This document shows positions 5,384-32,158 of a stretch of DNA of 39,723 nucleotides, piece after piece. The position numbers and the translations under genes were made by a program. How positions within the stretch are numbered: position 1 is the first letter of the stretch; each line of letters opens with the position of its first letter. The notes beneath the pieces were generated by a model. That model did not search any database. It worked only from the letters and a program-made list of their open reading frames with translations, and was not told the origin of the DNA. This DNA is from Parcubacteria group bacterium GW2011_GWC1_45_14 (GTDB lineage: Bacteria > Patescibacteriota > Minisyncoccia > Moranbacterales > GWC2-37-73): the NCBI GenBank assembly GCA_001001345.1, contig LCKI01000008.1, positions 1-39,723 on the forward strand, read 5' to 3'.

Positions 5384-5405
5384 AAGTAGTATTGCAAGTA
5401 TTCAT

Positions 5406-5460
5406 AGCGGGGTGGAGTCCGCCAGCTGGCGGAGCAGCTCTCCGCCGGTTGGCGGATCAT
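5406..5460 (+). pseudogene. Partial 5' copy of tRNA-fMet interrupted by two palindromes
   Basis: Bases 5406-5417 repeat the first 12 nt of tRNA-fMet exactly. Next come a 16-bp palindrome (TCCGCCAGCTGGCGGA, 5418-5433), the tRNA D-arm piece GCAGCTC (5434-5440), a second palindrome (TCCGCCGGTTGGCGGA, 5441-5456) and TCATA, which matches the anticodon region. The tRNA segments thus appear in order, with the intervening 7-nt parts replaced by palindromes. A word ATTGCAAGT also precedes both this fragment and the real tRNA. It cannot fold as a tRNA. Confidence 0.7.
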
Positions 5461-5498
5461 AGCCGATACGATTATTGCAAGTTCCAAATTCAATATAC

Positions 5499-5572
5499 AG
5501 CGGGGTGGAGCAGTCCGGCAGCTCGCGTGGCTCATAACCACGAGGTCACAGGTTCGAATCCTGTCCCCGCAA
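5499..5572 (+). tRNA. Initiator tRNA-fMet(CAU)
   Basis: A full cloverleaf of the same length as E. coli fMet without CCA. Initiator marks are an unpaired 1:72 (A and A), the A11:U24 pair, GG-CTCATAA-CC in the anticodon arm with anticodon CAT, and T-arm ACAGG/CCTGT. The 29:41 pair is U-A, so only two of the three classical G-C pairs are present. The gene-encoded 3' end is A73 then CA, not CCA. First of three tRNAs from the promoter at 5356. Confidence 0.93.
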
Positions 5573-5576
5573 CAAG

Positions 5577-5709
5577 TTGTGCTTTTCCGACCCTGTTTTA
5601 TTCGAAATGGGAAAGGGGTCGGGAAAACGGGAGTTTTCCCGCGATGGAAGCATTGAAACCGCAAGGTTTCAAGAAGCGAAGCGCGTGAGATTCCTGTCCC
5701 CGCAACAAG
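5577..5709 (+). repeat. tRNA-fMet trailer element ending in a copy of the tRNA 3' end
   Basis: About 130 bp follow the gene and end at 5689-5709 with a 20/21 match to the last 21 nt of the fMet region (5556-5576). The body contains hairpins CGGGAAAAC/GTTTTCCCG and TTGAAACC/GGTTTCAA. This body is clearly homologous to the one after the next tRNA (5816-5938), although the terminal copies match their own tRNA. No open reading frame. Confidence 0.85.
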
Positions 5710-5739
5710 CACGGTTTAAAGGTGAAGCGCAGCTTCGAT

Positions 5740-5813
5740 GCCAGGGTAGCTCAGTTGGTTAGAGCACAGGACTCATAAGCCTGGGGTCGTGAGTTCAAAT
5801 CTCACCCCTGGTA
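5740..5813 (+). tRNA. tRNA with CAU anticodon (elongator Met or Ile2)
   Basis: Cloverleaf with GCTCAGTTGGTTAGAGC D-arm, anticodon loop CTCATAA and T-arm GTGAG-TTCAAAT-CTCAC. The acceptor stem closes with a G1-U72 wobble and the anticodon stem has a 31:39 A-G mismatch. The anticodon is CAT; it is not the initiator (C11-G24). Whether it is elongator Met or lysidine-modified Ile2 cannot be settled by eye. The encoded end is A73-CA. Confidence 0.9.
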
Positions 5814-5938
5814 CAGGATTGGGAAGAGATTTGAACCAGGAAAGGGGTCGGGAAAACCTGGGTTTTCCCGGGGTGGAAGTATTGAAACCGAAAGGTTTCA
5901 AGGAGCATAAGCGACGTGAATATCTCACCCCTGGTACA
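5814..5938 (+). repeat. tRNA-Met trailer element ending in a copy of the tRNA 3' end
   Basis: The last 17 nt (5922-5938) repeat the 3' end of the preceding tRNA (5799-5815) exactly. The body is homologous to the fMet trailer: AAAGGGGTCGGGAAAAC, the hairpin arm GTTTTCCCG, TGGAAG, ATTGAAACCG, AAGGTTTCAA, then a GTGA just before the copy. Spacing of copy to gene is 123 bp. Confidence 0.85.
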
Positions 5939-6070: not shown

Positions 6071-6144
6071 GGGGGCGTAGCTCAGTTGGTTAGAGCGTCT
6101 GCCTGTCACGCAGAAGGTCGCCGGTTCGAGCCCGGTCGTCCCCG
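6071..6144 (+). tRNA. tRNA-Asp(GUC)
   Basis: Acceptor GGGGGCG/CGTCCCC, D-arm GCTCAGTTGGTTAGAGC, anticodon stem-loop TCTGC-CTGTCAC-GCAGA with anticodon GTC, T-arm GCCGG-TTCGAGC-CCGGT, discriminator G73 as expected for Asp. The encoded tail is CA, not CCA. Third tRNA of the plus-strand cluster. Confidence 0.95.
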
Positions 6145-6152
6145 CAGAAGTT

Positions 6153-6184
6153 AAAAACCGTGTCCGTAGGGATGCGGTTTTTAA
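6153..6184 (+). terminator. First terminator after tRNA-Asp
   Basis: AAAAACCG (6153-6160) pairs with CGGTTTTT (6175-6182) just after the tRNA. A typical terminator shape. It precedes the trailer element, so the element may be mostly untranscribed. Confidence 0.6.
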
Positions 6185-6309
6185 GTTTTGCCGGGGATAG
6201 GCGCGGGGCGAGAAGTTTACACTCTTCGAGTACAAGTGCCCGGAACGGGTAAGCCCGGCCCGCGTCGACGAGCAAGTCGTCTTGCGAGTCGAGGCGGGTC
6301 GTCCCTGCC
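6185..6309 (+). repeat. tRNA-Asp trailer element ending in a diverged tRNA 3' copy
   Basis: Positions 6288-6309 match the T-arm and acceptor 3' strand of tRNA-Asp (6125-6146) at 17 of 22 positions; this copy is followed by a true CCA, unlike the gene. The body includes GCGAGAAGTTTAC and TGCCCGGAACGGGTAA, close to sequences in the tRNA-Ser(GCU) trailer. The copy is again followed by a terminator (6316-6342). GC-rich, no gene. Confidence 0.7.
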
Positions 6310-6315
6310 AAAAAG

Positions 6316-30582: not shown

Positions 30583-30607
30583 TAAAAAAACCGCTTTCGG
30601 TTTTTCC
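30583..30607 (-). terminator. Terminator downstream of the tRNA-Arg copy
   Basis: AAAAAAACCG, loop CTTTC, GGTTTTT. Together with the hairpins in the 78-bp repeat it closes the tRNA-Arg region, read leftward. Confidence 0.65.
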
Positions 30608-30611
30608 ACAT

Positions 30612-30689
30612 TTCTATTCCTGACGAGAGCGAAGCAATTCACTCTCTCTTGGAAACATTCACTTGTTCATGTGTCCTTGGCAGGAATCG
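30612..30689 (-). repeat. tRNA-Arg 3' end plus trailer, distal copy
   Basis: A 78-bp direct repeat of 30787-30866 with about four mismatches and one indel. It includes the last 19 nt of tRNA-Arg plus CA and the trailer hairpin GAGAGTGAATTGCTTCGCTCTC. The offset is 176 bp. Confidence 0.9.
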
Positions 30690-30786
30690 GTCACGAGTAA
30701 ATTTCCTGACGTAAATTTCTCTCGACCCCGCCTCGCGGCGTTCGCCTTGCCCGCCAAAGCGGACAAACTCACGCACCGCTCCGGCT
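30690..30786 (-). repeat. Filler between the two tRNA-Arg 3' ends
   Basis: About 97 bp, GC-rich and palindromic (GGCGGGCAAGGCGAACGCC region), with GCGGGGTCGAGAGAAATTTAC, which resembles GCGCGGGGCGAGAAGTTTAC in the tRNA-Asp trailer. No open frame. Confidence 0.6.
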
Positions 30787-30847
30787 TTCGATTCCTGACG
30801 AGAGTGAAGCAGTTCACTCTCTCCTGGAAACATTCACTTTGTTCATG
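30787..30847 (-). repeat. tRNA-Arg trailer, proximal copy
   Basis: Trailer of tRNA-Arg with the hairpin GAGAGTGAACTGCTTCACTCTC. Just after the hairpin it carries CAGGAATCGAA, a perfect 11-nt complement of the T-arm segment TTCGATTCCTG of the tRNA itself, so a rival fold is possible. The distal copy has one mismatch there. Confidence 0.7.
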
Positions 30848-30920
30848 TGTCCTTGGCAGGAATCGAACCTGCGACCTTTTGGACCGCAACCAAACGCTCT
30901 ATCCACTGAGCTACAAGGAC
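30848..30920 (-). tRNA. tRNA-Arg(GCG)
   Basis: Acceptor GTCCTTG/CAAGGAC, D-arm GCTCAGTGGATAGAGC, anticodon arm TTTGG-TTGCGGT-CCAAA with anticodon GCG, T-arm GCAGG-TTCGATT-CCTGC, discriminator A73 then CA. GCG is unusual in bacteria, where Arg CGN codons are normally read by ACG with inosine. Confidence 0.92.
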
Positions 30921-32034: not shown

Positions 32035-32071
32035 AATATATTAAATTTTTCAACCGTTTCAATCATGAGTG

Positions 32072-32158
32072 CGGAGGCGGTGGGATTCGAACTCACGGTA
32101 CCCTTTCGGGCACGACAGTTTTCAAGACTGTTGCCTTCAACCACTCGGCCACACCTCC
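32072..32158 (-). tRNA. tRNA-Ser(UGA)
   Basis: Class II tRNA. Acceptor GGAGGTG/CGCCTCC, anticodon arm ACAGT-CTTGAAA-ACTGT (anticodon TGA), long variable arm CGTGCCCGAAAGGGTACCG, T-arm GTGAG/CCCAC with one A-C mismatch, G73, then CA. Confidence 0.93.

Follow-up and report, generated by a model that had tools for sequence, protein, structure and literature searches.

Gene-less hairpin elements with target-specific inverted arms at tRNA and protein-gene ends in Patescibacteria

The stretch of DNA analysed here (the window; 39,723 nucleotides of contig LCKI01000008.1 from Parcubacteria group bacterium GW2011_GWC1_45_14) carries genes for tRNA-fMet, tRNA-Met and tRNA-Asp, the first two of which are each followed by a short element (Table 1). 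The end of each of these two tRNA genes recurs behind its element as a direct repeat, matching at 20 of 21 positions for tRNA-fMet (5556-5576 versus 5689-5709) and exactly over 17 bp for tRNA-Met (5799-5815 versus 5922-5938). The bodies of the two elements (5600-5677 and 5829-5906) are 85% identical over 78 nt and have in common a structured core of about 77 nt. The original prediction that homologous elements follow the two genes, each ending in a copy of its own tRNA end, is thus upheld. It had overlooked a third, inverted partial copy of the tRNA end, which lies directly 5' of each core; the order at both loci is gene end (S), spacer, inverted partial copy (S'), core and second S. In the window copies the space between the direct repeats is too short for any gene, and a recombinase is not encoded there.

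Table 1. Positions of the tRNA genes and of the parts of the two elements in the window.
Feature	Position	Strand	Basis
tRNA-fMet	5499-5573	+	
Target end S, copy 1, tRNA-fMet (T-loop to 3 nt beyond the tRNA; functional copy)	5552-5576	+	Present once in the empty site of G001
Spacer after tRNA-fMet (starts TTGTGC, near-complement of the tRNA end GCAACAA)	5577-5599	+	Sequence; missing in G001
S' of fMet element (ATTCGAA, complement of the T-loop TTCGAAT at 5553-5559)	5600-5606	+	Pooled target-specificity
Conserved core, fMet element	5608-5684	+	Match to covariance model R1 at 5609-5685
Hairpin P2, fMet element (CGGGAAAAC-GGGA-GTTTTCCCG)	5620-5641	+	
Hairpin P3, fMet element (TTGAAACC-GCAA-GGTTTCAA)	5653-5672	+	
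Second copy of fMet end (GTGAG at its start in place of GTTCG)	5685-5709	+	20/21 match from 5689
tRNA-Met	5740-5814	+	
Target end S, copy 1, tRNA-Met	5793-5815	+	
S' of Met element (GAGATTTGAAC, 11-nt exact complement of GTTCAAATCTC at 5793-5803)	5826-5836	+	
Conserved core, Met element (GCGAC at its end)	5839-5915	+	R1 match at 5838-5915
Hairpin P2, Met element	5849-5870	+	
Hairpin P3, Met element	5882-5901	+	
Second copy of Met end (GTTCA changed to GTGAA, then 17-bp exact copy)	5916-5938	+	
tRNA-Asp	6071-6145		

A genome of the same genus, G001, has tRNA-fMet and tRNA-Met in the same order with neither insert present: its ...CCCCGCAACAAG is directly joined to the sequence that in the window comes after the second copy. 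Since G001 is cleanly empty at both places, the two window loci are independent insertions. The fMet insert measures 133 bp with one copy of its 20-21 bp duplication counted in; the duplication takes in three bases (AAG) past the tRNA. A further comparison is provided by the rpsI site of the genus g7, which is empty in G013, where the stop codon runs straight into ATCTTCCAAAACACTCC, and filled in G007, G011 and G017. In G017 and G007 this native terminator, unchanged or almost so, follows copy 2, beyond the insert; copy 2 is therefore the native end, displaced, and the insert contains copy 1. Copy 1 makes the gene whole and was functional in every pair inspected by eye, while copy 2 usually reads GTGA in tRNA copies and carries a frameshift or substitutions in some protein genes. 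The direct repeats can extend into the terminator (L116, L009 and L071). Tandem inserts are also found, two each at rpsI of G001 and of G011, and as identical units at tRNA-Arg of G129. Tandem duplication of a single locus was ruled out by the clean, independent empty sites and the dispersed copies. An intron spliced from RNA was likewise ruled out: the intact gene end, copy 1, belongs to the insert, and copy 2 is often altered.

The core contains at least three hairpins, P2, P3 and P4. The covariance analysis of the body proposed with the original prediction shows that P2 and P3 covary, with 26 cells of both-side changes against 6.5 in shuffles, above any slid version, although on two of five summary measures (pairs with both-side changes, further pair types) the values are no higher than in the shuffles. 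P4 commonly spans just 8 nt and elsewhere is a long stem of many different sequences. Folding z-scores range from -1.3 (L011) to -4.2 (L083) for RNA (five sequences) and from -2.9 to -5.1 for DNA (three sequences), from which a single strand is predicted to fold into an imperfect hairpin. Refolded hairpins contain more G-T than A-C (15 versus 5), whereas fixed alignment columns, where shifted subtypes misalign, contain 16 versus 25; this is a weak sign, and not a robust one, that the plus strand may be the folding strand. The suggestion that the element is a scar finds no support, since a core that is conserved and covarying does not look like a random residue.

The inverted piece is specific to its target. 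Across 84 tRNA copies, S' matches the T-loop consensus and beyond it follows its own tRNA: the match to the own tRNA is 0.76 at position 5, 0.81 at position 7 and 0.46 at position 12, compared with 0.50, 0.29 and 0.25 for other tRNAs, and over positions 7-12 the own tRNA fits better than the others in 70 of the 84. S' fits copy 1 (mean 8.9) better than copy 2 (mean 7.0), the mismatched controls scoring 6.1 and 6.2, respectively. Many S' pieces span no more than 7-12 nt and have central mismatches. At a gene for a fibronectin-type-III protein, two copy-1 changes between the orthologous inserts L106 and L085 are, by eye, paired with matching changes in S'. The flanking copy is also specific to its own gene, as had been predicted, with a mean upstream/downstream direct repeat score of 15.0 against 8.2 for mismatched pairs (89 copies). 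At tRNA sites the T-loop GTTC of copy 2 has become GTGA-like in 29 of the 44 second copies located and is GTTC/GTCC-like in six, the exact 9-mer rule leaving 40 of 84 unlocated; in copy 2 of the LepA-like gene, GGTC has become GGGA.

A search of this genome and its relatives for the core retrieved many further copies, at both tRNA and protein-gene ends. In this 0.89-Mb genome the pattern AAAGGGGTCGGGAAAAC has four exact matches and one near match; beyond the two window elements, matches to it lie behind tRNA-His and behind a gene read as rpsI. The covariance model R1 (built from 62 cores, namely 61 of 76 distinct cores and the window fMet core, with outliers omitted) finds eight core copies. 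BLAST detected the core in 47 of 139 related genomes. These numbers and the independent empty sites contradict the possibility, raised at the outset, that the element is confined to two loci or that the loci are tandem duplications of one another. With R1, 129 of 383 genomes sampled from the class were found to have the core (119 of the 338 good-quality ones), the highest number being 12 matches in one genome; a sample from the phylum gave 38 of 379. Named matches to a strict pattern belong to Moranbacteria/Moraniibacteriota, one Sungiibacteriota (Sungbacteria), one Parcubacteria-group genome and one unclassified MAG. The distribution is patchy within genera, and two thirds of the class genomes are without the core. 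Several carriers are one contig (for example G182 and G238), so the copies do not stem from misassembly. The tiny mobile element at tRNA 3' ends that had been proposed is borne out by the dispersal of the copies, the clean empty sites, the target duplications and the tandem insertions.

Two sets of copies were used in the comparisons: the 89 copies come from a subset of the BLAST locations together with the window, and the pooled set of 141 adds 52 of 65 further matches after duplicates, one short locus and weak matches had been dropped. The Rfam 15 covariance models, applied at E up to 1, gave only tRNAs and tRNA-overlapping chance matches where the elements lie, and viral contigs and phage and plasmid collections, each queried with one pattern or one 82-nt sequence, gave no match. 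Cores at different targets of one genome are closer (distance 0.209) than cores between genera (0.253), with none of 500 label shuffles as low, and cores from different genomes that share a target are likewise closer than chance (0.205; 1 of 500 shuffles). Both spread at one site and retargeting therefore occur. In G129, near-identical cores with different S stand at tRNA-Arg and tRNA-His.

At tRNAs the insertion point is directly before G53 in the T-loop. Among the 141 pooled copies, every tRNA within 250 nt upstream (85 of 85) or within 40 nt downstream (15 of 15) is on the same strand as the core. In 11 of the 15 copies that directly precede a tRNA, the last GAC of the core abuts tRNA position +1 exactly, and most of the 15 have no second copy of the upstream tRNA end. 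Protein genes, which the original prediction had missed, are also among the targets. As confirmed with Pfam, they include the 3' ends of the genes for ribosomal proteins S9 (rpsI), L33 (rpmG) and L11 (rplK, in L271), for sigma-70 (rpoD) and for a fibronectin-type-III surface protein, and the 5' ends of rplK (in L240), fusA for EF-G (in L242 and probably L061), lepA for a LepA-like elongation factor and dinB for a DinB-like polymerase. At the 5' ends (rplK, lepA, dinB and EF-G) the core runs antisense to the gene; the common rule is therefore that a broken end is restored, whatever the sense of transcription. Gene and core are separated at several loci by a strong hairpin resembling a terminator. 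The proposed layout of attL, element and attR without an integrase thus remains a fair description of the arrangement, but its sites include more than tRNAs. A role as a decoy protecting tRNA genes from integrases finds no support, given the insertions at protein-gene ends and the case of L256, where a large-serine-recombinase island sits between the tRNA and the hairpin element.

The repeated rpsI ends differ mostly at silent positions: in 11 hand-picked pairs, a selection from the rpsI copies, 32 codon differences are synonymous and 6 non-synonymous, where random changes would give about 14:49. This excess argues that the copies diverged mostly while both were coding, and would fit an rpsI end imported from another lineage. 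The junction sequences (TCCACAG at rpsI, GGTCAAT at lepA and GCGAGCG at sigma-70) are unlike one another, and the target sites therefore do not appear dif-like.

The gene families for recombinases, Y1 transposase and reverse transcriptase do not explain the distribution of the element. Tyrosine recombinases are near-universal and show no link to the core (44 of 47 carriers versus 85 of 92 non-carriers, p = 1); Xer-type genes, too, are near-universal in these genomes. Serine recombinases are mildly associated (34 of 47 versus 47 of 92, p = 0.019) and missing from 13 carriers. The Y1 transposase of the IS200/IS605 type is not found in the genome of the window and is not associated with the core (25 of 47 versus 53 of 92, p = 0.72), nor are reverse transcriptase genes (22 of 47 versus 45 of 92), which are missing from 25 of the 47 carriers. 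Upstream flanks were searched for a matching gene end farther off, and two cargo-like candidates emerged, L256 (7.8 kb) and L221 (about 2.2 kb). The first contains an island that has a large serine recombinase gene alongside EcoRV-like and DNA-methylase genes. Of ten located serine recombinases, nine adjoin a tRNA 3' end, as in L256 and L225, and the tenth, from the genome of the window (L297), has no tRNA in its stretch; since these recombinases adjoin tRNA 3' ends, the L256 island was read as a separate element and not as cargo. Two further loci were rejected as cargo forms, L222 for its match of only 14 nt and its ordinary-looking genes, and L225 because the second copy does not match its tRNA-Pro. 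As a separate observation, large serine recombinase genes face the adjoining tRNA 3' ends (L290-L299, L256 and L225), their islands carry defence-like genes, and PF07508 is present in 81 of the 139 relatives.

Several neighbouring and related structures were also noted. In the window, the segment after tRNA-Asp (6146-6310) carries an inverted piece and repeats the end of its tRNA, but the body is a different one, and G001 has a simpler form with an exact copy; this segment is a second class of the same architecture. On the minus strand at 30600-30920 (L135), tRNA-Arg(gcg) is followed by an insert with a third body, the direct repeat of about 90 bp including the terminator and the inverted piece. 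Other tRNAs of the same genome (L141, L149, L151 and L152) have an inverted piece and an end copy with large hairpin bodies, some with a motif like AAGGAG-hairpin-CGACG, and L054 has the core inside the loop of one such hairpin. In L131, L157 and L158 the tRNA is followed by an inverted partial end copy without core or second copy, possibly as deletion remnants. In G139 and G167 (L235, L236, L238 and L246-L248) the core forms part of a longer palindrome (CCTCCCTTGGGGGAGGTGG ... core ... GGAGGAGG) that is dispersed and seems to lie away from gene ends. Behind tRNA-Ser (32071-32158, minus strand, L160) an apparent truncated 5' part of tRNA-Ser precedes a hairpin-rich stretch. Just before the intact tRNA-fMet gene, at 5404-5480, there is a broken copy of its start (AGCGGGGTGGAG), interrupted by a TCCGCCAGCTGGCGGA palindrome and missing in G001.

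The element resembles integrative elements that target tRNA and gene ends (islands and IMEs) in its direct repeats of the gene end at the borders, the restoration of an intact gene by the incoming copy, the displaced far copy, the fixed orientation and the tandem insertion. It differs from them in its length of about 0.1-0.25 kb, in having no integrase and usually no cargo, and in its conserved hairpin core and target-specific inverted piece. IS200/IS605 elements and their MITEs have subterminal hairpins and a short guide pairing with the target, and these Y1 elements insert without target duplication; the fMet insert, by contrast, has its 20-21 bp duplication, in a genome where that transposase was not found. 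The crossover core of integron attC sites is GTTRRRY, and this GTT motif is not present at the protein-gene junctions at rpsI, lepA and sigma-70; the predicted folding of one strand into an imperfect hairpin is a likeness to attC. The excerpted text of PMC4792948 describes, for the single-stranded attP of CTXphi and for attC, inverted repeats that let one strand fold into a site imitating a duplex, and a CTXphi phage that has no integrase of its own. The present element has no phage or cassette genes and its target sites are mutually unlike, while no rewriting of S and S' is known in those systems. Mitochondrial double-hairpin or repetitive hairpin elements, as portrayed in excerpts of PMC2800124, are dispersed, potentially mobile, very short and gene-less, and flanking duplications are reported there to be lacking in the Allomyces elements. 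Dispersed copies of a two-hairpin unit are common to both; those elements, however, are organellar, the fMet element has a flanking duplication, and a target-derived inverted arm and gene-end restoration are not mentioned in the excerpts of PMC2800124. No prior description of the family was found in open-licence PMC papers. A 0.1-kb core without genes, an inverted arm specific to the target and the restoring of the gene end make up a combination that is new as far as can be tested.

The direct repeats, the restored genes, the constant orientation, the tandem inserts, the precise empty sites and the apparently imported ends argue for a site-specific integrative element, whereas the small size, the hairpin core, S' and the lack of an enzyme are not typical of one. 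With S folded on S', the strand would display the target in duplex form beside the structured core, which is why we lean, tentatively, towards a single Patescibacteria family of gene-less integrative elements, possibly pared down to a folded attachment site and mobilised in trans. Such an element would move as a single strand or circle; S' would pair with S, and the folded strand would show a double-stranded imitation of the target site, much like CTXphi attP and integron attC. The folded strand might then be joined to the real site by a recombinase provided in trans, and recombination within S could yield the direct repeats, the restored gene, tandem insertion and the import of a gene end from another lineage. 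Several observations weigh against this folded attachment site. No recombinase is linked to the element, and a single enzyme accepting such different sites would be unusual. The Arg and His cores of G129 and the lower core distance within genomes need retargeting, which site-specific recombination does not provide. The short S', mismatched mid-way even in the recent window copy, and the 15 copies directly before a tRNA, most without a second copy of the upstream tRNA end, also sit poorly with it, and the excess of G-T over A-C in the stems could also mean a role as RNA. Retargeting would be accommodated if the element were guide-like, S' pairing with the target and selecting the insertion point and insertion rewriting S' from the new target, a proposal we consider rather doubtful.

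A template-switch or retro-insertion, which we regard as unlikely, would also explain retargeting, together with the variable repeat length, including the AAG past the window fMet gene. Here the core, as RNA or single-stranded DNA, would be attached to a nick; copying of the target would run forward and reverse its direction at a turn point beyond the gene end, so that S, S', core and S are made in one event with S' as an insertion by-product. The turn often falls at the terminator hairpin or just beyond the gene end, in keeping with repeats that reach the terminator; but a fresh copy should be a perfect palindrome, and recent copies (window fMet, G129 His) are mismatched mid-way, reverse transcriptase genes show no association, and the synonymous divergence of the rpsI copies suggests an imported end. 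The clean duplication at fMet would suit a MITE-like small transposon that makes target duplications of about 20 bp with an ordinary transposase, S' arising or persisting because a core-adjacent hairpin is needed for function; several cores without a tRNA S indeed have a 5' hairpin of other sequence (for example L082, L057 and L068). Such a transposon is nevertheless improbable, as the core has no terminal inverted repeats of its own, the site choice is far too specific, and the Y1 transposase is neither present in this genome nor associated. Equally hard to sustain is a host-useful structured RNA in the trailers and leaders of tRNA and ribosomal-protein transcripts, acting in processing, stability or attenuation and spread by occasional duplication. 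The core's constant placement on the tRNA strand, the GAC set exactly at tRNA +1, the helix covariation and the compensatory look of the L085 and L106 changes would agree with it, but the antisense cores at gene 5' ends, the terminator-like hairpins between gene and core, and the absence from two thirds of the class genomes with patchiness within genera speak against it.

The elements form an abundant and apparently undescribed family of Patescibacteria, present in 129 of the 383 class genomes sampled, which inserts in some of the most conserved genes of the cell and yet leaves them working. For annotation, the family is a warning that duplicated ends of tRNA and ribosomal genes are common in CPR genomes. 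Natural pairs of empty and filled sites are available, and they raise the question of how a new target gets copied into the inverted arm. If self-retargeting proved true, a 0.1-kb element without genes would move between unrelated gene ends, with the gene always left whole.
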